Shown here: positions 22,908-36,575 of the stretch, piece after piece
How positions within the stretch are numbered: the first letter of the stretch is position 1
Layout of the letters: each line of letters opens with the position of its first letter
NCBI GenBank assembly: GCA_016288815.1
Contig: JAEELF010000005.1
Coordinates: 1-37,291 of the forward strand
Source of the DNA: Ruminococcus sp.
Lineage (GTDB): Bacteria > Bacillota > Clostridia > Oscillospirales > Ruminococcaceae
DNA length: 37,291 nt
Direction of reading: 5' to 3'
Notes under the pieces: generated by a model
Told to the model about the DNA's origin: nothing
Database searches by the model: none
The model's input: only the letters and a program-made list of their open reading frames with translations
Translations under genes and position numbers: made by a program

Positions 22908-25900
22908 TCAGGCTATCTGCCATGAGTCAAAGCTGACGTCCCCGCTGAATACGAAGTATACGTCCTGTGTTCCTGTCGCCTTTGTAACGATAGGAGAGGT
23001 TATGTTAGACATAGATCCGCCTGCGGGAACCTCGACATAAGTCATGGCTGTGCCGCTTGCGCTCTTTGTGCAAACCTTGATGACTGCACCGTCCTTGGAA
23101 GAAGCACGGACTGTTATGCTCTTCGGATTTGTTCCGAGGGCAACGCCCTTTACCTCTGTCCACTCGCCCTTGCTGCCGGTAACAACAGTATCCTGGAGAC
23201 CTGTTGTTCTGATACCAGCGGACTGGTTGCCCATTGTCTCAGCCTGTACCTTGGTGTAGGGATCGAGAGTCTCGATCTGGTCAACGCCCTTCATGGTACC
23301 TGTTGCTGTGAACATACCGTTGGAGAATGTAGCCTTGTCGATGTGAGTCGAACGGAGATTAGCTCCGAGGTCGTCACCGCCGTCGTCTGTCTTTCCGACA
23401 ATACCCATTGCTCTGGAAAGGTGGCGGCTGTGGTAGAGTACATAGTAATTGCCCTTGAACTCGATGATGGAGTGGTGGTTGTTTCCGCCGCCGTCGAGCT
23501 GGTAGGAAGCAGGGTTCTTGAGGCAGATGCCCTTGTAGGTGAACGGTCCCATAGGATTGCTGGATGTCATTACAGCGATCTCAGCATTGTTGAAGCCATA
23601 GGGATTACCGCCTGTACTCCAGTTTGTGCAGTAGGAGTAGTAGTATGTGCCGTCTACCTTGATTATCGAGGAGTCCTCGAAGAGGTAGGGGGGATTAAGT
23701 CTTGCGTACTCGCCGGTGAGAGATGTCATATCTGCGCCGAGCTTGACTATTCTTGCTGTGCCGGGGTCAGCAGCCTTGCCGCTGGGAACGCCGCCGCCGC
23801 AGTAGAGGTAGCCTGTACCGTCGTCGTCTACCATTACGCCGGGGTCAAAGAGCCACTCAACGTCGCCGAAGCCGGGGGTAGACTTTGTGATAAGTGCGTG
23901 ACCGATAGGATCTGTGTAGGGACCCTCGGGAGCGTCTGCTGTGAGAACGCCGATACCGCCTGCGCTGTCAGCGAAGTAGAGGAAGAACTTATCCTTGCCG
24001 TTGATCGTCTTCCAGCAAGCGTCGGGAGCCCATGCGAAGCTCGCCCACTTTGCGGGACCGTTATGGCCGTTTTTGCCTGCAACGGGGATAGCGCCGTGGT
24101 CAGTCCAGTTTACGAGGTCTGCTGTAGAGAAGCAGTTGAGCGTCTGGCTGTCGTACTTGATAGAACGGATCTGTCCTGCGGAGTTGTACTCGATAGCGTC
24201 GTTTGTGGTGAATACATAGAGTCTGTCCTTGTATACCATCCAGCCGGGGTCAGCACCGAAGCGCTGAGTCCAGCATACGTTGTTCTCGCCGTCCTTCTTG
24301 TAGCTTGTAGCTGTAGTTACAGATGCGAAAATGGACTCATACTTAGCAACGTCTATCTTCTTCTCTGCTACCGGGAATGCTGTTATCATGCCGAGGACGA
24401 ACTTCTGGATATTTACTACGTCTGCTACCTCGAACTCACCGCTCTGGTCAACGTCTGCTACGAGAGCTGTTACGCTGTCAGTGAAGCTGTTTACGAGACC
24501 CTGTCTTGCGAGGGAGATATCAACTGCTGTGATAACGCCGTCGAAGTCGAGGTCGCCGAGGTTGATCTGTCTGCCGCCGCCAGGGCCGTCAATTACCTTG
24601 CCGGGGATAGCTGCGTAAACGTCGTCAACGTAGAAATTAGCTGTGGAATCGTCAGATGTCTCAACGTAGATCTGAAGATTTGTTGCGCCTGCGGGGATCT
24701 CATACTCTGTGTTTGCAAGCTGGATCCACTCACCGCTGAGGGCTGTTCCGCTTGCGATCTCGGAGTAGTATGTCTCGTTATCGGAGCCAGTGTACTGGAG
24801 AGTGAACTTGAAGTCAACGGAAGCTGCGCCGTCGAGCGACAGCGCGCAAGCACTGAAGCTGTACTTCTCGCCAGCCTTGAACCACTTGCTGCTCAGAGAC
24901 TTTGCACCGCCGTTCCATGCAGCTGTTCTGTCCTGAACGAGGAGGGACTCGCTGCCCTCATAAGCAGCTCTGCCGCTTGTGGAAACAGATGCAGCACCTC
25001 TGCCGCTCCAGCTGTTCGTGGAACCCTCGAATGTATCGTGGAAGTATAATCCGTTCTCATCGGGAAGATTTACGGGTGTGGGCGTATTGCCGCTGCTTCC
25101 GGGACCTGTGTACGGGATACCGATGCCCCACTCAGACTCGGGGAGCATGGACGAAAGTGCTGTGTACGCAGCCTTAGGATTGTTGTTGGAATCACGGAGA
25201 AGAGCGTTAGAGCCAGCAGAGAGCCACGAGTTAGCATCGTTGGGTCCCCAGATCTGGTACAGAGTTACTCTACCTGTACCCTCGGGGTTATCGTTCCAGT
25301 CCATAGCAGCCTGTGCTATACCTGTGTACTTCCTTGCCTGATCCTGTGCGGAATATGTGCCGTTCTCGACGCTGATGTCGAGCTCGGTGATCTGTACCTC
25401 ACAGCCGATGGAGAGGTACTTCTTCATAGCTGTAACGTAATTGTTATAGCCGGAGAAACCATCCCAGTTTGCATTGATGTGGGACTGCATTCCTACACCG
25501 TCGAGGACGCCCTCTTCATAGAGCTCCTTACACATTCTGTAGATACAGTCTCTCTTATGATCCCAGTACTCGTTGTAGTCGTTGTAGAACAGCTTACAAC
25601 CCTCGGGAGCATACATCTTAGCGTATGTGAACGCCTGTCTTACGAAGCTGTTGTCGCCGTAAACAGATACCCATGCGGAAGTACCGTCATGGTTCTTATC
25701 GTTATCGCCGGCAACTCTGGGTCCCCAGCCGGGAGCACCCGTTCTGGAGGAGTCATCGGATACGCACTCATTACATACATCGTATGCGAAGAGGTCGAGG
25801 TTAGGATACTGCGTTTCGAAAGCGTTGAACATATTCTTGATGTAGCTCTCGAGACGCTGATTCATCGTAGTCGTGTTAACAAAAGCGCCGTTGGAATTGA

Positions 25901-26768
25901 AGCCCTCTCTGAAGAACCACGAAGGAGACTGGCTGTGCCATACCATCGTGTGTCCGCGGAAGCCGATGCCGTTCTGCGAGCAGAAATCAGCGATAGCTGC
26001 GCATCTGCTGAGGGATACTTTGATATTGGTATCTGTCGAGCCCGACTGAACAAGAGTAGCATCCGGCTTGGTCTCGTTCTCGCACTCGATAGAGTTGAAG
26101 TCCTTGAGATAGTCAGCAAGTATAGTGGAATTCTGTACTGTACCGCCGTTGAGGATATTACCTACGCGGAAGTAGTTTGCGAACTCATCCTTAAGTCCCT
26201 TCTGCGAGGAAGCTGCGTGGACCTCGTTCTTGGATCTCTGCTCTGTAACGAGAACGTTATCGAAGTAGAAATCGTCTGTTGACTCAGTTGTGATGGTAAG
26301 ACGGAACTCATAGCTGTTATCGGGGGCAGTGTACTTTGTGGAAAGCTCTGTCCACTCGCCAGCCTTGACGCTCTTGGTCATGAGCTGGATCTCCGTCTCA
26401 GCCTCAGTATAGAGATCCTGTACAACGAGCGAAACGTGGAACACCTGATCCTTCTCGCTCATTACCTCCATGCTGTAGTTGTACTCAACGCCGCCGTTGA
26501 GGTAGAAGCCCTTGGACGACTGAGCGCCGTCGCCTATGACGGTTCTGCCGCTTACGAGCATTCCCCTTGTGCCGTTGGCACCGCCGCCGGGAACGGCGGT
26601 CAGGGTGGTGTAGTCGCCGAACTCATGCCAGCCGCCGTAGTCGACTTCAAAGTCATTGTGTACGAGCTCAGCAGCGTATGTACTGCCGCCGAAATCCGGG
26701 ACAGCCGTGATAACGCCTGCGAAGCACGCAGCGGCAGTGAGGCTTGCCGCTATCTTCTTGAAATTCAT
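22908..26768 (-). CDS. secreted six-module xylanase: CBM22-GH10-CBM22-dockerin-GH43-CBM6
   Basis: The protein has 1286 residues. After a signal peptide (about 1-33) come a CBM22 (about 35-180) and a GH10 xylanase (about 195-555) with acid/base Glu334 in DVCNECVSD and nucleophile Glu462 in ITELDIS. A second CBM22 lies at about 575-725 and a dockerin at about 735-800 (GDLDFDGVITAVDISLARQ, then ADVDQSGEFEVADVVNIQKF). A GH43 domain covers about 805-1130 (base Asp840 in GADPGWMVYKDRLYVF, LFDPGVMVDDDGTGYLY, LFEDSSIIKVDGTYYYSY). A CBM6 (YTKVQAETM onwards) ends the protein. GH10 cuts the xylan backbone; the GH43 is likely a xylosidase or arabinofuranosidase. The start at 26768 has AAGGAGG upstream; an ATG 21 codons earlier lies right on that site and is rejected. 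Confidence 0.93.
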   Translation of the reverse strand: MNFKKIAASLTAAACFAGVITAVPDFGGSTYAAELVHNDFEVDYGGWHEFGDYTTLTAVPGGGANGTRGMLVSGRTVIGDGAQSSKGFYLNGGVEYNYSMEVMSEKDQVFHVSLVVQDLYTEAETEIQLMTKSVKAGEWTELSTKYTAPDNSYEFRLTITTESTDDFYFDNVLVTEQRSKNEVHAASSQKGLKDEFANYFRVGNILNGGTVQNSTILADYLKDFNSIECENETKPDATLVQSGSTDTNIKVSLSRCAAIADFCSQNGIGFRGHTMVWHSQSPSWFFREGFNSNGAFVNTTTMNQRLESYIKNMFNAFETQYPNLDLFAYDVCNECVSDDSSRTGAPGWGPRVAGDNDKNHDGTSAWVSVYGDNSFVRQAFTYAKMYAPEGCKLFYNDYNEYWDHKRDCIYRMCKELYEEGVLDGVGMQSHINANWDGFSGYNNYVTAMKKYLSIGCEVQITELDISVENGTYSAQDQARKYTGIAQAAMDWNDNPEGTGRVTLYQIWGPNDANSWLSAGSNALLRDSNNNPKAAYTALSSMLPESEWGIGIPYTGPGSSGNTPTPVNLPDENGLYFHDTFEGSTNSWSGRGAASVSTSGRAAYEGSESLLVQDRTAAWNGGAKSLSSKWFKAGEKYSFSACALSLDGAASVDFKFTLQYTGSDNETYYSEIASGTALSGEWIQLANTEYEIPAGATNLQIYVETSDDSTANFYVDDVYAAIPGKVIDGPGGGRQINLGDLDFDGVITAVDISLARQGLVNSFTDSVTALVADVDQSGEFEVADVVNIQKFVLGMITAFPVAEKKIDVAKYESIFASVTTATSYKKDGENNVCWTQRFGADPGWMVYKDRLYVFTTNDAIEYNSAGQIRSIKYDSQTLNCFSTADLVNWTDHGAIPVAGKNGHNGPAKWASFAWAPDACWKTINGKDKFFLYFADSAGGIGVLTADAPEGPYTDPIGHALITKSTPGFGDVEWLFDPGVMVDDDGTGYLYCGGGVPSGKAADPGTARIVKLGADMTSLTGEYARLNPPYLFEDSSIIKVDGTYYYSYCTNWSTGGNPYGFNNAEIAVMTSSNPMGPFTYKGICLKNPASYQLDGGGNNHHSIIEFKGNYYVLYHSRHLSRAMGIVGKTDDGGDDLGANLRSTHIDKATFSNGMFTATGTMKGVDQIETLDPYTKVQAETMGNQSAGIRTTGLQDTVVTGSKGEWTEVKGVALGTNPKSITVRASSKDGAVIKVCTKSASGTAMTYVEVPAGGSMSNITSPIVTKATGTQDVYFVFSGDVSFDSWQIA

Positions 26769-26902
26769 AACTTTTTCCTCCTTATTCATATTTCGTTCAC
26801 GAGTTAATATTGTTATTGTACCCCAGTCCTCATGCACGGTCAGTACACGGAGCCGCTGCCGTCAAGGCATAGCTGTGCCGACTGTGCTTATTGCATAATT
26901 TC

Positions 26903-30097: not shown

Positions 30098-30133
30098 ACC
30101 GCCTGCGGTCACATGACCACAGGCGGTGTTTTT
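30098..30133 (+). terminator. terminator of the PL1 gene
   Basis: ACCGCCTG pairs with CAGGCGGT, with an inner GGTCA/TGACC stem, followed by GTTTTT. It overlaps the last bases of the convergent dockerin gene. Confidence 0.82.
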
Positions 30134-30932
30134 ATGCATTGTCAGCTGCGAACCACTCCGCGATGGAGAGCGTTCCGTTATCGACCGCGTAGGCGTTGTA
30201 CGCGAGTATCAGCGAGGCGTCAGCGGAATCGACCAGACCGTCGCCGTTGATGTCGGCGGCTTTTTTCTGTACGTCCGTGAACGTGCCCGAGTTGTCAGCC
30301 ACAGCAGCATTCTCGACGAGTATCGCGGAAGCGTCTGCGCCGTCGATGAGTCCGTCGCTGTTGACGTCGCCGAGGACGAAGTCAGAGATGTGGAAGGTCA
30401 CATGGTAATAGAAAGCGATGCCGCCGTCTACTTTCTCGGGCTCCTCCTTTTCTACCTCAACAGCCGCGCCGGGCTCGCTGCTCACTTCGACCAGAACAGC
30501 ATAGAGCACGCTGCCGTCCGGGGAATCGTTGATGTCGGGGAACTCAAATGTCTCCCTGTAGGTCCCGGACTCGACGCCGTCGTCGTTCTTAGCAGTCAGC
30601 GAAAGATGATAGTAGCGGTAGTCGTCAAGGGTATTTGTCCTTCCCTCGACCTCAAAGCCGTAGATCCTGCTGTCTGTGATGTCATAGCTGTAGTACGGCT
30701 CATTTGTGACCTCCGGGGAATCAAAGTCCACCTTGACGTTCAGCTCCGCGCCGGTGAGCAGGCGCACTGCGAAACCTCCGCCGACCTCGAGCTCGTTGAA
30801 TTCCTTATAGACCGGCTCGACCTTTACGGTTGAAGTCTCAACATCGGGAGCCTCCGCCGCATAGGTGCTGGCAGGTGCAGCTGCAAGACTCACCGCCGTG
30901 AGCAGCGCCGCTGTTATCTTCATGATCTTCAT
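30132..30932 (-). CDS. small dockerin protein, last gene of the surface operon
   Basis: The protein has 266 residues. A signal peptide (about 1-25, MKITAALLTAVSLAAA) leads to an unrecognised beta-rich region (about 28-185; FNELEVGGGFAVRLLTG, YYSYDITDSRIYGFEVEG, SLTAKNDDGVESGTYRETF). A C-terminal dockerin covers about 188-258, with two clean calcium loops: GDVNSDGLIDGADASAIL and ADINGDGLVDSADASLIL. No catalytic motif is seen. It follows the AlgJ-like gene by 15 bases and is the final gene of the five-gene operon, so it may link that system to a cohesin at the cell surface. The dockerin differs from all others in the window. Confidence 0.82.
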   Translation of the reverse strand: MKIMKITAALLTAVSLAAAPASTYAAEAPDVETSTVKVEPVYKEFNELEVGGGFAVRLLTGAELNVKVDFDSPEVTNEPYYSYDITDSRIYGFEVEGRTNTLDDYRYYHLSLTAKNDDGVESGTYRETFEFPDINDSPDGSVLYAVLVEVSSEPGAAVEVEKEEPEKVDGGIAFYYHVTFHISDFVLGDVNSDGLIDGADASAILVENAAVADNSGTFTDVQKKAADINGDGLVDSADASLILAYNAYAVDNGTLSIAEWFAADNA

Positions 30933-30947
30933 TCAAATCACAACCTT

Positions 30948-32339
30948 TTACTTATTTGCCGCCGCGCGTCCGTCCGGACTGACCGCGGTTATCGTTATGT
31001 CGTCTGTGCTGATATCCTCGTCTGCGGAGATATACAGCGAAAATCCGTTGTCCGAGGTCTCGCCCTCGCGACCGAGCAGCTTATCCTCGAAGCAGCTGAA
31101 CGCCTCGTATGTGGTGCCGCCGGCGGTGACGTATATCACCGAAGGGCTGCCGTTCACCCACTGCTCCGGTATCTCGCCGTAGATGTGGGTGTACATTCCC
31201 GCCTGCTCTGCCTTTATGAGCGGGGCTGCGGTCTGCACCTGAACGTCCGCTGAGCTGATGTCAGCCTCCGGTGCGGGCATTACAGGGGCGTATTTCTGCA
31301 AGTTGGGGATATTCCTCTCCACTATCTCGAGTATCACGGTGTCCGCCGCGCCGGTGGCTATGCTGCCGGTCTGGTATGGGACGTTCCGCGTGAACTCGCA
31401 CGAGGAGAAGCATTCCGCGATGAACGGTATTATCGCCTCGCCGTATGAGTCGCGGTACATCAGCAGCGAGCCGCTCTTCCCCTCGCAGGACGTGCGTATC
31501 GTGACGTCGTCGAAGCTGCGGAAGTGCCCCATATAGGTGTACTGCGGGACGTAGTCGCTGTAGACCTGCATATCGTCAGCCTTTGCGGACGGGTAGATCA
31601 TCGCGGCGAGGTCGCCCTGACGGTCGTTCCGGGTAGTCCAGTTACCTGCGGGGCAGGTCTCGTGCCCGAGCGCTCCCATGAGGGACAGATGCCCGACGTA
31701 GGCGCCGAGGTTGTTCCAGTGAGTGTCCTCCTTGTGGTAGAGGGGGATATTCGAGTCAGCCGCGAGGAGCGCCGTTTTCAGGTCGCAGAACCATTCCGCG
31801 TCAGCGAGGCTCTCCGCCAGAAGCTCGTAGTTGCCCTTGTCGGCGGACTCGACGTAGTTGAACGGCATATGCTCCGGGTAGAGCGAGTTCTTGTTCGGGG
31901 CGACGGTGAAGATGAAGTCCGCGCCGCACGCCTCGCAGTAGTCGCTGAGGAGCTGTAGATTATGCCGGATATTGCTCACTCCCCTGCCGGAGAGCGTGTT
32001 GATGTTGAGGAAATCGTCTGTGGTCTCGCCGTAGTAGAGCCAGCCGTCTGTGCCGACAATGACGTCGCTGTTGGGCGATGTGCCGAACACTGTGGCTTTC
32101 AGTTCCCCGTCAGCAGTGACGAGCTTTGACCTCCACGCGAAGTGCTCCGAGAACCAGCTGTCGAACTCGTCGAAGTAGTCGAAATTGAGCTTACCGTCCG
32201 TTACCGGCTTCGGGAGCTGCGCGAGCTCGCGCTTTTCCTTGTTGTCGTCAGCTTTGACGAATGGAGTCAGCGCCGCAGGAAGTGCACAGACTGCCACGAA
32301 TACCGCGCAGTAAGCACAGTAAAGAATGTTCTTTTTCAT
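30948..32339 (-). CDS. AlgJ/AlgX-like SGNH O-acetyltransferase (DHHW type)
   Basis: The protein has 463 residues. One N-terminal hydrophobic segment (about 5-27) acts as signal or anchor; the rest should lie outside the membrane. FDSWFSEHFAWRSKLV and GTDGWLYYGETTDDFLN are typical of the AlgJ/AlgX and DHHW group. The presumed triad is visible: Asp205 and His207 in EDTHWNN and Ser298 in YRDSYGEA. A C-terminal domain of about 90 residues follows and is probably a beta-sandwich. In alginate-type systems such proteins take acetyl groups delivered by an MBOAT partner and pass them to a polysaccharide. The MBOAT gene is 11 bases upstream, which supports this. TAGGAGGT precedes the ATG; the acceptor glycan is unknown. 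Confidence 0.87.
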   Translation of the reverse strand: MKKNILYCAYCAVFVAVCALPAALTPFVKADDNKEKRELAQLPKPVTDGKLNFDYFDEFDSWFSEHFAWRSKLVTADGELKATVFGTSPNSDVIVGTDGWLYYGETTDDFLNINTLSGRGVSNIRHNLQLLSDYCEACGADFIFTVAPNKNSLYPEHMPFNYVESADKGNYELLAESLADAEWFCDLKTALLAADSNIPLYHKEDTHWNNLGAYVGHLSLMGALGHETCPAGNWTTRNDRQGDLAAMIYPSAKADDMQVYSDYVPQYTYMGHFRSFDDVTIRTSCEGKSGSLLMYRDSYGEAIIPFIAECFSSCEFTRNVPYQTGSIATGAADTVILEIVERNIPNLQKYAPVMPAPEADISSADVQVQTAAPLIKAEQAGMYTHIYGEIPEQWVNGSPSVIYVTAGGTTYEAFSCFEDKLLGREGETSDNGFSLYISADEDISTDDITITAVSPDGRAAANK

Positions 32340-32350
32340 GCCCGCACCTC

Positions 32351-33754
32351 CTAAAACCTGAAATAGATGAACGGGTTATAGCTCGCGGACGAAAGCGTGA
32401 GTATGCAAACCGCGAGCAGCACGAGCGATACCGCGTAGGTGCAGACCTCGCCGGCTGCCGCGCCTTTCCCGGCGCTGAGTTTCTTCCCTGCCGCCTTTAC
32501 AACAGGCGTGGAGAAGACTATCGCGAGCACGAACATTATGAGATACATCGGGGTGAGCTGGCTGAGCAGCATGGAGGTCTGTGCGCTGCTGCCCGAGAAG
32601 CTGAACATCTTCCCGATGAACCGGCAAGCCGTGGGGAGGTCGTCCGCACGGAAGAATACGAATGCCAGCACTGTCACGAGCACTGCGTAGAAGTGACGAA
32701 ACGGCTTCAGCCATTTGGCGGGCTTGAGTATCCCGTAGGATTCAAGCATCATGAAGGCGCCGTTGAGGAGTCCCCAGACGATGAAGTTAAGGCTCGCGCC
32801 GTGCCACAAGCCCGTGCAGAAGAAAACTGCCAGCTTGTTGAATGCCGTGCGTACCTTTCCTTTGCGGTTGCCGCCGAGGGGTATGTACAGGTACTCCTTG
32901 AACCACGTTGACACGCTGATGTGCCAGCGGCGCCAGAATTCCTGCATGGACTGCGAGATGTAGGGGTAGTTGAAGTTCTCGCGGAACGTGAAGCCGAACA
33001 TCTTGCCGAGTCCGATAGCCATATCGCTGTAGCCGCTGAAATCGAAGAATATCTGGAATAAATACGACACCGCGCCCAGCCATGCAAGTCCCATGGAGAG
33101 ACCGTCAGTGCCGAAACCATAGACGTAGTCCGCGGCGAGCGCCATAGTGTTCGCGATAAGCAGCTTCTTGGAAAGTCCCACGATGAAGCGGCGTATGCCC
33201 TGTGCAGTCATTTCAGGGGTGGTGGTGCGGTGGTCGATCTGGTCTGCGAAATCGTAGTACTTGACGATAGGTCCTGCCACGAGCTGCGGGAAGAAGGTTA
33301 TGTACAGCGCCAGCTTATAGAGGCTGCGCTGTATGTACTTCGGGTCCTTGTAGGCGTCGATGACGTAGGACATCGCCTGGAAGGTGTAGAAGGAAATGCC
33401 TATAGGCAGCGCGATGCGCGGCACGCTTACCGTCACGAACGGGAGCCTGTTGAGCATATCAGCCGCAAAGCCCGCATACTTGAATATCCCGAGCATCGTG
33501 AGGTTCGCGATGACCGCGAGCGCCAGCACGGGCTTGCGCGCCTTGTTTTCCTTCTTCATCGCGAGACCGAAGCAGTAGTTCATCGCTATCGAGATGAGCA
33601 TGAGCACGACTGCCTTCGGTTCGCCATAGGTATAGAATGCTATGCTGAATATCAGCAGCAGCACGTTTTTTGCGGTAATGGCCGGTATCAGGCGGTAGAG
33701 CACGAACACCGACGTCATGAATATAAAGAGGAATACCGGACTGCTGAATACCAA
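32351..33754 (-). CDS. MBOAT acyltransferase (AlgI/DltB-like)
   Basis: This 467-residue polytopic membrane protein belongs to the MBOAT family. Landmarks are LPIGISFYTFQAMSYVID, FFPQLVAGPIVKY, FDFSGYSDMAIG, EFWRRWHISVSTWFKEYLYIP and the catalytic His318 in GLWHGAS. It should move an acyl group, most likely acetyl, across the membrane to the AlgJ-like partner encoded next. The start is TTG at 33754, with AAGGAGG 7 bases upstream; that ribosome site overlaps the stop codon of the preceding gene, and this gene's own stop overlaps the ribosome site of the next. Translation of the three genes is therefore probably coupled. Confidence 0.93.
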   Translation of the reverse strand: MVFSSPVFLFIFMTSVFVLYRLIPAITAKNVLLLIFSIAFYTYGEPKAVVLMLISIAMNYCFGLAMKKENKARKPVLALAVIANLTMLGIFKYAGFAADMLNRLPFVTVSVPRIALPIGISFYTFQAMSYVIDAYKDPKYIQRSLYKLALYITFFPQLVAGPIVKYYDFADQIDHRTTTPEMTAQGIRRFIVGLSKKLLIANTMALAADYVYGFGTDGLSMGLAWLGAVSYLFQIFFDFSGYSDMAIGLGKMFGFTFRENFNYPYISQSMQEFWRRWHISVSTWFKEYLYIPLGGNRKGKVRTAFNKLAVFFCTGLWHGASLNFIVWGLLNGAFMMLESYGILKPAKWLKPFRHFYAVLVTVLAFVFFRADDLPTACRFIGKMFSFSGSSAQTSMLLSQLTPMYLIMFVLAIVFSTPVVKAAGKKLSAGKGAAAGEVCTYAVSLVLLAVCILTLSSASYNPFIYFRF

Positions 33755-33766
33755 GACAGCTCCTCC

Positions 33767-34501
33767 TTATGCCGGATAGTAGAATTCGATCTGGGATACG
33801 GTGTCGCCGCTGTAGGAGAACGTGAGCTCTTTGTCACCGTCGGAGTAGAACGAGCCGTCGCCGCCGAACGCGGATACTACAGCGTCGCGGGAGCTTCCGA
33901 TCGTAACGCCGCCCGCGGAGTAGCCGCTGCCGGTGATGACGATAGAGCAGATAGCCTCAGAGCCGCCGTTGTTGAAGGACTGTACCTCCAGACCGCTGTA
34001 CTGATATACAGTGATGTCGCTGCCGCTGCTGGTGCAGGCGGCGCTTGTTCCCTTGTAGCTGGGAGTGCCGAGCGCGGATATAGCCGAGCTGCTCAGAAGG
34101 TCGCCGAAGCTGAAGCTGTAGCCGGACGCTACCGGCTGCTGTACGGGAGCCTCAGTGGGGGCTTCTGTGGGAGCCTCTGTCTCCGCCTCTGTGGGAGCTT
34201 CGGTCTGCTCCTCGTTATTGCCGTCGCTCTCGGTATTCTCCTCGGTCTTATCCTCGTCTGCCTCTGTGGACTCTTCCTCCTTTGCCTCTGTGGACTTCTC
34301 CTCGGTCTTCTCGGACTTCTCCTCAGCGGGCTTTGTCTCCTCGGACTGCTCCTCGCCGGAGGCTGCCTCGGTGGACTCCGCCTGACTGTTCACATTGAGT
34401 GTTACTGATGTGCCGCCCTTGTCCTCGTCGCTCCCGCACGAAACTGCGGCAGCTGCGAATACTGCTGCACAAGCCATGATAGCTGCGATCTTTCTTTTCA
34501 T
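33767..34501 (-). CDS. lipoprotein with an acidic linker
   Basis: The protein has 244 residues. A lipoprotein signal ends in AAAVSC with Cys22 as the lipidation site. Residues about 30-125 are an extremely acidic, Glu/Thr/Ser/Lys-rich linker ending in EAPTEAPTEAP repeats. Residues about 128-244 form a small folded domain (FGDLLSSSAISALGTPSYKG, GVTIGSSRDAVVSAFGGDG) with two motifs like those of SmpA/BamE or DUF4309 folds; this is a weak resemblance. It probably sits on the outer face of the membrane and reaches into the wall. The start at 34501 has GGAGG upstream; the ATG five codons earlier is part of that site. Confidence 0.8.
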   Translation of the reverse strand: MKRKIAAIMACAAVFAAAAVSCGSDEDKGGTSVTLNVNSQAESTEAASGEEQSEETKPAEEKSEKTEEKSTEAKEEESTEADEDKTEENTESDGNNEEQTEAPTEAETEAPTEAPTEAPVQQPVASGYSFSFGDLLSSSAISALGTPSYKGTSAACTSSGSDITVYQYSGLEVQSFNNGGSEAICSIVITGSGYSAGGVTIGSSRDAVVSAFGGDGSFYSDGDKELTFSYSGDTVSQIEFYYPA

Positions 34502-34528
34502 TTTATTATCCTCCATATCTTTCTTTTA

Positions 34529-36460
34529 TCAGAAATACTTTGCGTAAACGCACTTATACCATGTGTAGTTCTGGGACTTGAGGTAATCATCCGACACGCC
34601 GTAATAACCGTTGCAGGTGTCGTAGTTCACCCACTGTCCGTTGATGACTACCTGATTCCAGTAGTGGTCGCCGTCGCCGCGTCCTGTGCCGTAGATGATC
34701 CTCGTCTGGTAGCCTGCCTGCTGGAAGAGAAGATCAGTTATGGCTGCGAAGTAGTAGCAGACAACGTATCTGTTGTTGAGCGCATACTGTGCGAACGAAG
34801 ACCAGCCGAGCGACTCGATAGTCGCGAGGGACTTGGTGTCCTCGATGTATTTGTACTTGTTGTGGTCGCGGACGTAATTGAATATCTCAGCCACGCCCTT
34901 GCCTGTGGAGGCGAGGATGTTGTTCGCCTGCACCTGAACGGAAGTGAGAGCGACCTCATATCCTGCCACGCCGACATTGCGGCCGTCAACGGTCTTGTTC
35001 TTGTCCATTCTGCCGTCAGCGGCGAAGTGATAGTTCTTGCCGTCAACTGTCACCCAGCCGGTGGTCATAACGCCGCTCGCGTTGAAATAGTAGGTGCTGC
35101 CGTCCTCGATAGTCACTATGCCGAACTGCATAGTTCCGTCGGAAGCGAAGTAATAGGTCTTGCCGTCGATAGTCTGGAGCCCGGTCTGCATAACACCGTT
35201 GTCAGCGAAATAGTACTTCTTGCCGTCGATGAGGAGACGTCCGGTCATCATCTTGCCGTCGTCAGCGAAGTAGTATGTGCTGTCGCCGATGACCTGGAAG
35301 CCGGTCGCCATGACATAATTGTCATCGAAATAGTACTTGCTGCTGTCGATGAGGAGCCTGCCCTTGAGCAGCTTGCCCTCCTCGTTCGCGTAGTAAGTCG
35401 CATCGCCGTACTTCACGAAGCCGATACCCATGACGCCGTCCTCGCCGAAGATGTAGGCGACGTCGTCGATGACAGTAACGCCCTTTGCCTTGACGCCGCT
35501 GCTGTTGTAGTAGTACTTTTTGCCGTCAGCGGTCACCCAACCGGCAAGGAACTCACCGCTCTCGGGGTCTGAGCTGAACTGTGCGCCGTCAACGGTAAAC
35601 TCGCCCTTCTGGAGTCCGCTCTCGGCGGATATATAATATGTATGCTCCGCGCCCTCGGAGTCCTTCAGCGTGACGAATCCGACCTGAGCCTCGCCTGTCT
35701 CGGGGTCGTAGTAGTAGGTGCCGCTCTCGAGGTCAGCCCAGCCGGTCAGCTGCTTGAAATCGTCGGCAAATTTATAGTGAAGGTCTCCGATGAGCGTCTC
35801 GCCCTTTGCGAGGGAACCGTCTTCACCAGCGTAGTAGAAGCTGTCTCCATATTTAAAGAAGCCCGTCTCGGTGCTGAGCGCGCCTTTTTCATCAAAGAAA
35901 TAGCCCTTTTCCTCGTCGGAGTGGATCCAAACAATGCCAGACTTCTTGCCGGAGTCCATCGCAATGAAGTATTTCCTCCCGCAGTACTCGATCCAGCCGT
36001 AAACGGGCTTGCCAGTCGCGGGGTCGAAGTAAAGTCTCCTTCCGCCGACTGTGCGCCAGCCGGTCTTGAGGACGCCGTTCGCCGAGAAAAGGTAGGTGTC
36101 GCCGTCGATAGTATGCTCGCCGGTGAGGTAAGCGCCGTCCTCGCCATAGAAGAAGCGACCGGAATCGTCCTTGATCCAGCCGTCAGCGACCGTAGTCACG
36201 GCAGGCTGGGTCGTTGTGACAGTTGAAGATACAGCCGTGGTCGTAGTAGTCTGCGTGGAAGACAAAGAGGAAGTCTTTGCGGCAGATGTGGTCGTTGCAG
36301 CCGAAGAAGTCGTAGTGGTCGTAGACGCAGCGGGGGCTGTCGTCGTAACAGTAGTTGTTGTCTCCGCCGGTTCAGCGGCGGCATTCGCTGCCTTAGGCGC
36401 GGCAGCAAGAAGAGCGAGCGCAGCAGCAGTGCCGGCTGCTATGCCAAATATTTTTTTCAT
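34529..36460 (-). CDS. cell wall-binding repeat protein with a transglutaminase-like domain
   Basis: The protein has 643 residues. A signal peptide (about 1-26) is followed by a Thr-rich linker (about 30-90). About nineteen choline-binding-like repeats (CW_binding type; GWxxxxGxxYYFxxxG) run from about 92 to 490, with degenerate copies first and clean ones later (GRLLIDGKKYYFADNGVMQTG). The C-terminal domain (about 510-643) resembles a transglutaminase-type cysteine peptidase with a plausible triad: Cys568 in YVVCYYF, His599 in DHYWN and Asp614 in VNYDTC. It could cross-link or cleave surface proteins. The start at 36460 has AAAGGAG upstream. It is the first gene of the five-gene operon. Confidence 0.88.
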   Translation of the reverse strand: MKKIFGIAAGTAAALALLAAAPKAANAAAEPAETTTTVTTTAPAASTTTTTSSAATTTSAAKTSSLSSTQTTTTTAVSSTVTTTQPAVTTVADGWIKDDSGRFFYGEDGAYLTGEHTIDGDTYLFSANGVLKTGWRTVGGRRLYFDPATGKPVYGWIEYCGRKYFIAMDSGKKSGIVWIHSDEEKGYFFDEKGALSTETGFFKYGDSFYYAGEDGSLAKGETLIGDLHYKFADDFKQLTGWADLESGTYYYDPETGEAQVGFVTLKDSEGAEHTYYISAESGLQKGEFTVDGAQFSSDPESGEFLAGWVTADGKKYYYNSSGVKAKGVTVIDDVAYIFGEDGVMGIGFVKYGDATYYANEEGKLLKGRLLIDSSKYYFDDNYVMATGFQVIGDSTYYFADDGKMMTGRLLIDGKKYYFADNGVMQTGLQTIDGKTYYFASDGTMQFGIVTIEDGSTYYFNASGVMTTGWVTVDGKNYHFAADGRMDKNKTVDGRNVGVAGYEVALTSVQVQANNILASTGKGVAEIFNYVRDHNKYKYIEDTKSLATIESLGWSSFAQYALNNRYVVCYYFAAITDLLFQQAGYQTRIIYGTGRGDGDHYWNQVVINGQWVNYDTCNGYYGVSDDYLKSQNYTWYKCVYAKYF

Positions 36461-36546: not shown

Positions 36547-36575
36547 ATTATAGCAGAGTTTTAGCGCAAATGCAA
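36547..36575 (-). promoter_or_regulatory. promoter of the five-gene surface operon
   Basis: The minus strand reads TTGCAT, 17 bases, TATAAT. The -10 ends about 86 bases before the start at 36460. No other promoter is evident in the short gaps of the operon. Confidence 0.8.

Follow-up and report, generated by a model that had tools for sequence, protein, structure and literature searches.

The window analysed here, a 37,291-nucleotide stretch of a Ruminococcus sp. genome (contig JAEELF010000005.1, assembly GCA_016288815.1), carries five consecutive minus-strand genes (hereafter referred to as TG, LIP, MBOAT, ALGX and DOC), running from position 36460 to position 30132, which gene layout and conservation predict to be a real operon. 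This operon is of a conserved MBOAT-SGNH type that also encodes a transglutaminase-like wall protein and, where the ruminococcus is cellulosomal, a dockerin of the surface type; no prior description of it was found in the open-licence papers searched. We tentatively interpret it, with a confidence just short of even, as an extracellular O-acylation module, most likely for O-acetylation, that would act on the bacterium's own wall glycan and would be docked to ScaE in cellulosomal ruminococci. The features concerned are listed below.

34529..36460, minus strand: TG, 643 amino acids, PF19127, PF01473 and PF01841
33767..34501 or 34516, minus strand: LIP, the end depending on the ATG chosen; no Pfam family
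32351..33754, minus strand: MBOAT, 467 amino acids, PF03062
30948..32339, minus strand: ALGX, PF16822 and PF14286
30132..30932, minus strand: DOC, secreted beta-sandwich and Dockerin_1
36547..36575, minus strand: probable promoter of the operon, TTGCAT-17-TATAAT with TGC ahead of the -10 box, read by eye
30098..30127, minus strand: terminator-like hairpin 3' of DOC, with 13 pairs (9 G-C) and a T-rich tail

Layout and conservation of the operon

The five-gene unit had been predicted from the window alone, and the tight spacing of the genes on a single strand, together with the conservation of their order in relatives, confirms it. The intergenic gaps are 12, 12, 11 and 15 bases when LIP begins at its first ATG (34516). 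The second ATG (34501), which has GGAGG ahead of it and gives a shorter signal peptide, is the likelier start on sequence grounds and widens the TG-LIP gap to 27 bases; of the gaps in the original prediction (27, 12, 11 and 15), the last three therefore stand as given, and the first holds with the second ATG only. Overlap of ribosome sites with preceding stop codons had also been claimed for the unit. It was found for MBOAT and ALGX but not for the other genes, and the site of DOC (AAAGG) is weaker. The outcome for the single promoter was likewise mixed: a consensus scan yielded nothing before TG and a single weak site between TG and LIP, but a good extended -10 box with a poor -35 box, read by eye, stands about 85 bases ahead of the TG ATG, and was missed by the scan because its -35 box fits only three of six positions.

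Conservation was first assessed in a sample of 148 genomes of the family, 107 of which gave an ALGX match of any strength and 13 a close match (E below 1e-50). TG was found upstream on the same strand in 11 of the 12 close loci other than the window; in L043, it lies upstream but apart from the MBOAT-ALGX pair, and the contig of L045 is too short to show whether TG precedes ALGX. A scan of named genome contigs then provided the best 80 (L063-L142) of at least 561 confirmed relatives, so the frequencies below are valid for near relatives only. With duplicates removed (L087, L090 and L130), and excluding L047, L048 and L049 (distant ALGX with MBOAT and no TG within reach), 90 loci were counted, including the window. 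Full context (flanks of 4.5 kb or more upstream and 1.2 kb or more downstream) was available for 63 of these loci, and MBOAT was present in 63, TG in 61 and LIP in 58 of them. The gene-order comparison proposed with the original prediction bore it out: the exact order TG-LIP-MBOAT-ALGX was conserved in 50 of the 63 loci, with DOC next in 37, whereas the other 13 loci either had LIP in a different place (past ALGX or ahead of TG) or yielded no LIP or no TG. A dockerin was present within or beside the unit in 47 of the full-context loci (in a neighbouring gene in 39 and inside TG in 8), and the DOC was of the same family in 37. R. flavefaciens FD-1 (L085) carries all five genes; its MBOAT-ALGX spacing is 223 bases, and the spacing of the genes varies among relatives.

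The association was also recovered from the TG side. It had been proposed that the unit would be called into question if TG usually occurred without the MBOAT pair, but eight of the ten best matches to the TG end of the protein among the 148 family genomes (the window's own included) adjoin such a pair. Two do not: one is an extra TG of G096, whose operon has its own, and the other a broken TG in G027 (G027:C27:21222-21767), interrupted by stop codons in a genome with no ALGX match. Chance adjacency was set aside, the gene order being conserved.

Additional genes accompany the operon in some relatives. A gene of about 310-340 amino acids with a shared start sequence is found at most some 240 bases ahead of TG in L035, L063, L065, L066, L068, L069, L070, L074, L075 and L082, and overlaps the TG frame in L063; it belongs to the diacylglycerol-kinase family in L035 and L066 (Pfam), the other loci being judged by the start sequence. 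In L084 (6475-9306), DOC is followed by a gene for a PreP-like M16 peptidase (943 amino acids, Pfam), and genes similar in size and place follow DOC in L086, L089, L091, L097, L099 and L101-L103; in this subgroup, the gene begins 5-16 bases after DOC or overlaps it. The Ruminococcus-type operon of L071 is in a record titled Alistipes senegalensis, which is probably misnamed or contaminated.

The MBOAT-ALGX pair and its partners

Pfam domains were called from scores above curated cut-offs, and motifs were counted in 88 loci (L104 and L141, without MBOAT, were excluded). MBOAT matched PF03062 with 122.1 bits. H318, as expected of a catalytic histidine, and Y464 were at least 90% conserved (18 aligned rows), and the string LWHG(A/G) was found in 77 of the 88 loci, and not in that form in the other 11. 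The protein ends in FIYFRF (including Tyr464), which conforms to FXYXXF, the acyl-shuttle motif of PatA and DltX (PMC12148441), and this motif, as FIYxxF, terminates MBOAT in all 88 loci. PatA is described as acetylating the Tyr of its own C-terminal hexapeptide, and PatB as able to accept acetyl from such a peptide (PMC12148441).

ALGX, an SGNH protein located outside the membrane, has a hydrophobic anchor at its N-terminus and is extended at its C-terminus by about 110 amino acids. It scored above cut-off for both PF16822 (66.3 bits, cut-off 26.5) and PF14286 (DHHW, 41.3 bits), and the former score, with the DXH motif D205-T-H207, places it in the AlgX/AlgJ family. The Ser-His-Asp triad of SGNH proteins (S298, H207 and D205) was invariant in 13 aligned rows, and D(T/S)HW and RDS(F/Y) were kept in 88 of 88 proteins. 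The nearest solved structure was that of B. cereus PatB1 (5v8d, E 3.4e-7), the conserved blocks of which are KDS, DXRY and TDHHW (PMC9487903). ALGX has RDS and D(T/S)HW, and its R318 is at least 90% conserved without the Asp of DXRY; deviating from all three blocks, it is, as judged from its residues, a related but distinct type and not a canonical PatB1.

MBOAT and the AlgJ/AlgX-like protein had been predicted to form an acylation pair, and the shuttle motif and the conservation of the triad support this. Because FXYXXF, D(T/S)HW and RDS are kept in 88 of 88 loci, the assignment of MBOAT-ALGX as a putative extracellular acylation pair is well supported, and the reaction would most likely be an acetyl transfer to a glycan. 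Dlt-type alanylation was rejected, as the DltB cut-off was missed and the operon contains no carrier genes, and the possibility of ALGX being a lone esterase was rejected because its MBOAT partner is fixed.

Related genes occur elsewhere. The own genome has a second pair of MBOAT and AlgX-like genes (L051:7637-10135, G000:C29) and another MBOAT gene that precedes two uncharacterised genes and an 80-amino-acid acyl-carrier-like gene identified by eye (L052:9042-13910, G000:C29). In 94 of the 107 ALGX-matching family genomes, the matches are weaker ones only, often of about 370-450 amino acids, and MBOAT pairing was observed in the three distant ALGX loci read (L047-L049); these weaker relatives may be general wall acetylases.

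TG is a secreted protein with a Thr-rich stretch, wall repeats of the choline-binding or glucan-binding type and a C-terminal transglutaminase-like domain (PF19127, 178.5 bits; PF01473, 108.8 bits; PF01841 or Transglut_core, 37.3 bits against a cut-off of 23), the catalytic triad of which (C568, H599 and D614) was invariant in 12 aligned rows. The repeats match Choline_bind_3/1/2 and reach the glucan-binding cut-off (TIGR04035, 155.3 against 147.7); similar repeats in solved proteins also occur in glucan-acting enzymes, and the genome has one LicD gene. Binding to choline on teichoic acid, the property of choline-binding wall proteins, is for TG a prediction only. In LIP, a lipoprotein, an acidic linker of low complexity leads to a compact beta/alpha domain (residues 130-249 when numbered from the 34516 ATG); the protein matched no Pfam family above the curated cut-offs. 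In L046 (G096), the LIP domain is part of a 667-amino-acid ALGX, and this natural fusion indicates a shared function, which suggests that the lipoprotein may work with the acyltransferase.

The dockerin and its cohesin partner

DOC consists of a secreted beta-sandwich domain (residues 35-181) followed by a two-repeat dockerin (187-266), which scored 36.2 bits for PF00404 (cut-off 22.9) and has a fold resembling that of known dockerins. In both sequence and fold, the closest dockerin of known partner was that of ScaH (8AJY), solved with the cohesin of the wall anchor (E 2.4e-10 for the window and 1.6e-12 for FD-1), and the next matches of the FD-1 protein were two X-dockerin chains and a group 2 dockerin. 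As a control, the dockerin of the neighbouring pectate lyase did not list ScaH at E values up to 1. With the ScaH dockerin as the query, DOC ranked first of 26 matches in its own genome (44.0 bits; second, 40.9), and the GH43 dockerin of the window ranked 23rd. The cohesin of ScaE, which is sorted to the wall, is bound by group 4 dockerins (those of CttA, ScaB, ScaF, ScaH, ScaI and a peptidase) and by those of group 2, and weaker dockerin binding to cohesins G and H is described (PMC5301203). The own genome has a sca cluster with a ScaE gene (2zf9, E 3.9e-20). On the basis of its nearest kin, the DOC dockerin is predicted to be of the group 4/ScaE kind, in which case it would probably be tied to the wall anchor rather than to an enzyme-bearing scaffold. 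The original prediction of a physical tie to the cellulosome or the wall is thus retained as a likely tie to the cellulosome apparatus, with its route changed to the wall anchor ScaE.

Several results weigh against this assignment, and likeness to ScaH is only an indirect guide to ScaE binding. DOC led ranks 2 and 3 by about 3 bits with the ScaH query, and the own ScaB and CttA, which are known ScaE ligands with insertions in their dockerins, ranked 20th and 24th. The CttA dockerin query returned CttA itself first, ScaB second and DOC 10th of 39. The Gly-Arg dyad, which stands in both repeats of FD-1 ScaH and matters there, is absent from DOC, which has Gly-Ala in repeat 1 and Ser-Ala in repeat 2; the own ScaB and CttA also lack the Arg, with Gly-Val, Gly-Ala or Gly-Thr at the recognition dyad (aligned by eye).

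Four dockerin arrangements were found among the loci. One clade of the MBOAT tree has the DOC gene after ALGX throughout its 43 rows, with the contig of L088 ending before the dockerin. In L038 and L109, the dockerin gene after ALGX has a diverged or unrelated front part. The dockerin lies inside TG in 11 loci by the hidden Markov model count (L037 being a twelfth by Pfam), an arrangement that recurs in another clade, and L041 has a gene for a leucine-rich repeat (LRR) protein with a dockerin before TG. Dockerin presence was compared with cohesin number, uncorrected for kinship, in the 33 rows of known cohesin number that had full context or a dockerin. All 19 rows with a dockerin had at least one cohesin and 17 had four or more; among the 14 without a dockerin, 10 had one or more and three had four or more. 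L133 was scored as having no dockerin, though a dockerin gene ends 235 bases before its TG. Eleven short-flank rows were excluded (cohesins in brackets): L037 (2), L045 (3), L046 (22), L115 (0), L116 (17), L118 (2), L122 (0), L124 (12), L134 (1), L135 (0) and L136 (0). Three of them (L046, L116 and L124), with no dockerin in the available flanks, lean against the association. On the MBOAT tree, dockerin presence needs three changes, and an independent-pairs test, which corrects for kinship, had too few pairs for significance.

The core operon also occurs without a dockerin in the cohesin-free genomes of L106 and L132, and of L136 at a contig edge, and in cohesin-rich L142 and, with the reservation given above, L133. 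Docking is thus dispensable, a point against the proposed docked module. The acylation core is therefore wider than the cellulosome link, the dockerin being an add-on, and the distribution looks like one in which cellulosomal lineages gained this link, possibly in repeated events.

Three tRNA genes lie on the upstream side of the operon. On its downstream side is the convergent pectate lyase gene, separated from DOC by the hairpin; the dockerin of this lyase scores slightly under the Pfam cut-off. At 22908-26837, the window encodes one protein with a dockerin-like stretch, also slightly under the cut-off, between GH10/CBM and GH43/CBM6 modules. Across the whole genome, 70 dockerin matches were counted, which occupy about 3% of gene slots.

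Probable target of acylation and comparison with known systems

Three lines of evidence favour the bacterium's own wall as the probable target: the TG repeats, the peptidoglycan-enzyme neighbours and the acetate of R. flavefaciens 007. An M15/VanY peptidase gene was found on the upstream side in 5 of 96 loci scanned (L106, L107, L112, L113 and L114) and a transpeptidase-domain gene downstream in 13 of 96, all with a DOC gene. The peptidoglycan of strain 007 carries 33.4 +/- 3.4% base-labile acetate per muramic acid (PMC1199599, 2005). No AT3 protein, and hence no OatA, was found in the own genome (95% complete), and some AT3 protein was present in 30 of 32 relatives.

Other observations count against the wall as the target, or against this operon as its acetylase. 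The peptidoglycan-type neighbours are in a minority of loci, and the transpeptidase gene begins 42-161 bases past the preceding frame (12 loci), so it may be a separate unit. In L044, a polysaccharide-biosynthesis gene (PF02719) lies 79 bases before TG. The acetate value comes from strain 007, whereas the operon is known from FD-1 and other genomes, and it could include wall-bound polymers. That the acyl group is acetyl is an assumption. Besides the MBOAT of the operon, the genome encodes three more, and the one that adjoins the second AlgX-like protein forms a pair with it that could be the actual wall acetylase.

The pair may alternatively O-acylate a polysaccharide of the glycocalyx, whether secreted or capsular, in the way that AlgIJX modifies alginate and CcsHI is proposed to modify clostridial cellulose, with TG and DOC fixing the matrix to the surface. 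We consider this unlikely, if the most credible of the alternatives. ALGX scores higher for PF16822 (AlgX) than for DHHW, the TG repeats reach the glucan-binding cut-off, and CcsH/CcsI are an MBOAT/DHHW pair in Clostridia (PMC7710045). The L044 gene points the same way, but it is the sole polymer-synthesis gene among the 28 neighbouring proteins of relatives scanned with Pfam, a scan outside which most other neighbours lie, and peptidoglycan enzymes recur more often. The bacterium's own matrix had been put forward as a target; the peptidoglycan-type neighbours favour the wall over a secreted matrix, with L044 as the counterexample.

It is less probable still that the operon serves the maturation of surface proteins, in which TG would covalently cross-link DOC, ScaE or components of the cellulosome to the wall and MBOAT-ALGX would acylate protein-linked glycans on Thr-rich linkers. 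TG, with its triad kept, accompanies the pair almost as regularly as any of the partners does (61 of 63 loci), the dockerin within TG in 11 loci and L037 would bring the enzyme to a cohesin, and the DOC of L035 has long Thr-rich linkers. However, many of the transglutaminase-like proteins of bacteria act as peptidases, this operon has no known acyl donor or acceptor, and the core is also present in genomes without cohesins. Finally, it is improbable that DOC and the TG dockerin are ordinary cellulosomal passengers, by chance beside a housekeeping acylation operon, as the dockerin richness of the genome and the three changes on the MBOAT tree would allow, because the same DOC family follows ALGX throughout one clade and dockerins recur in the operon as TG fusions, as other genes after ALGX (L038 and L109) and as the LRR-dockerin gene of L041.

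In our preferred reading, acylation of the wall glycan, MBOAT would, by analogy with PatA, charge Tyr464 of FIYFRF with an acyl group, which is probably acetyl taken from acetyl-CoA. The FIYFRF peptide would present this group outside the membrane to Ser298 of ALGX, which would hand it to peptidoglycan or an attached polymer, with LIP, lipid-held at the membrane, as a possible partner. TG, bound to the wall by its repeats, is predicted to cut or link side chains of peptides or surface proteins via its Cys-His-Asp triad. The DOC dockerin would plug into the cohesin of wall-sorted ScaE, and the beta domain of DOC might keep either the module or the modified glycan at the points of cellulosome anchoring. 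By likeness to the acetylation of secondary polymers for S-layers in Bacillus, it is conceivable, at rather less than even confidence, that an acylation and transglutaminase module recruited via a ScaE-type dockerin modifies a wall patch governing the place or the firmness of attachment of cellulosomes and other surface proteins.

Bacteria of the R. flavefaciens type are key fibre degraders. With such a dockerin beside a wall-type acyltransferase pair, the operon supplies candidate genes for the tailoring of the wall to carry cellulosomes, and for the many dockerins borne by proteins other than plant-fibre enzymes; perhaps the chemistry of the wall and the machinery for digesting fibre are built together. 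It is also a candidate source of the O-acetylated peptidoglycan reported for R. flavefaciens 007 (PMC1199599).

The original prediction knew of no described system with this composition, and our search of the open-licence literature (MBOAT/DHHW with Ruminococcus, dockerin, transglutaminase, cellulosome and O-acetyltransferase) found none. The closest systems each share part of it. PatA1/PatB1 of B. cereus and B. anthracis is likewise a Gram-positive MBOAT and SGNH pair, and PatB1 is the nearest solved structure to ALGX; it O-acetylates the secondary cell wall polysaccharide and governs the assembly and seating of S-layer proteins (PMC9487903). Nevertheless, ALGX has RDS, D(T/S)HW and only the Arg of DXRY where PatB1 has KDS and TDHHW, and the system as described there has no transglutaminase, lipoprotein or dockerin partners. 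The Gram-negative PatA/PatB system for peptidoglycan resembles the operon in the C-terminal FXYXXF and catalytic His of its MBOAT and in its separate SGNH transferase, but PatB is of another SGNH family (DUF459) and the operon as described includes Ape1 rather than TG, a lipoprotein or a dockerin (PMC12148441). AlgI/AlgJ/AlgX (alginate) and CcsH/CcsI (proposed for clostridial cellulose) also combine an MBOAT with an AlgX/DHHW-type SGNH protein, in polymer-synthesis operons, whereas the operon of the window has no polymer-synthesis gene. The Dlt system (DltB/DltD with DltX) follows the same MBOAT-SGNH logic, and DltB is the nearest solved MBOAT, but the MBOAT of the window scored 144.4 bits against a DltB cut-off of 375 (TIGR04091), carries the shuttle motif itself and is in an operon without DltA, DltC and DltX. 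Lastly, the group 4b "transglutaminase-like-Doc" operon of FD-1 (ORF01263-01267) shares secreted transglutaminase-like proteins and surface-type dockerins with the unit, but is described as five tandem dockerin proteins (four transglutaminase-like and one LRR), with no acylation pair mentioned in that description, in which group 4 dockerins are suggested to help structure the cell surface (PMC2930009).

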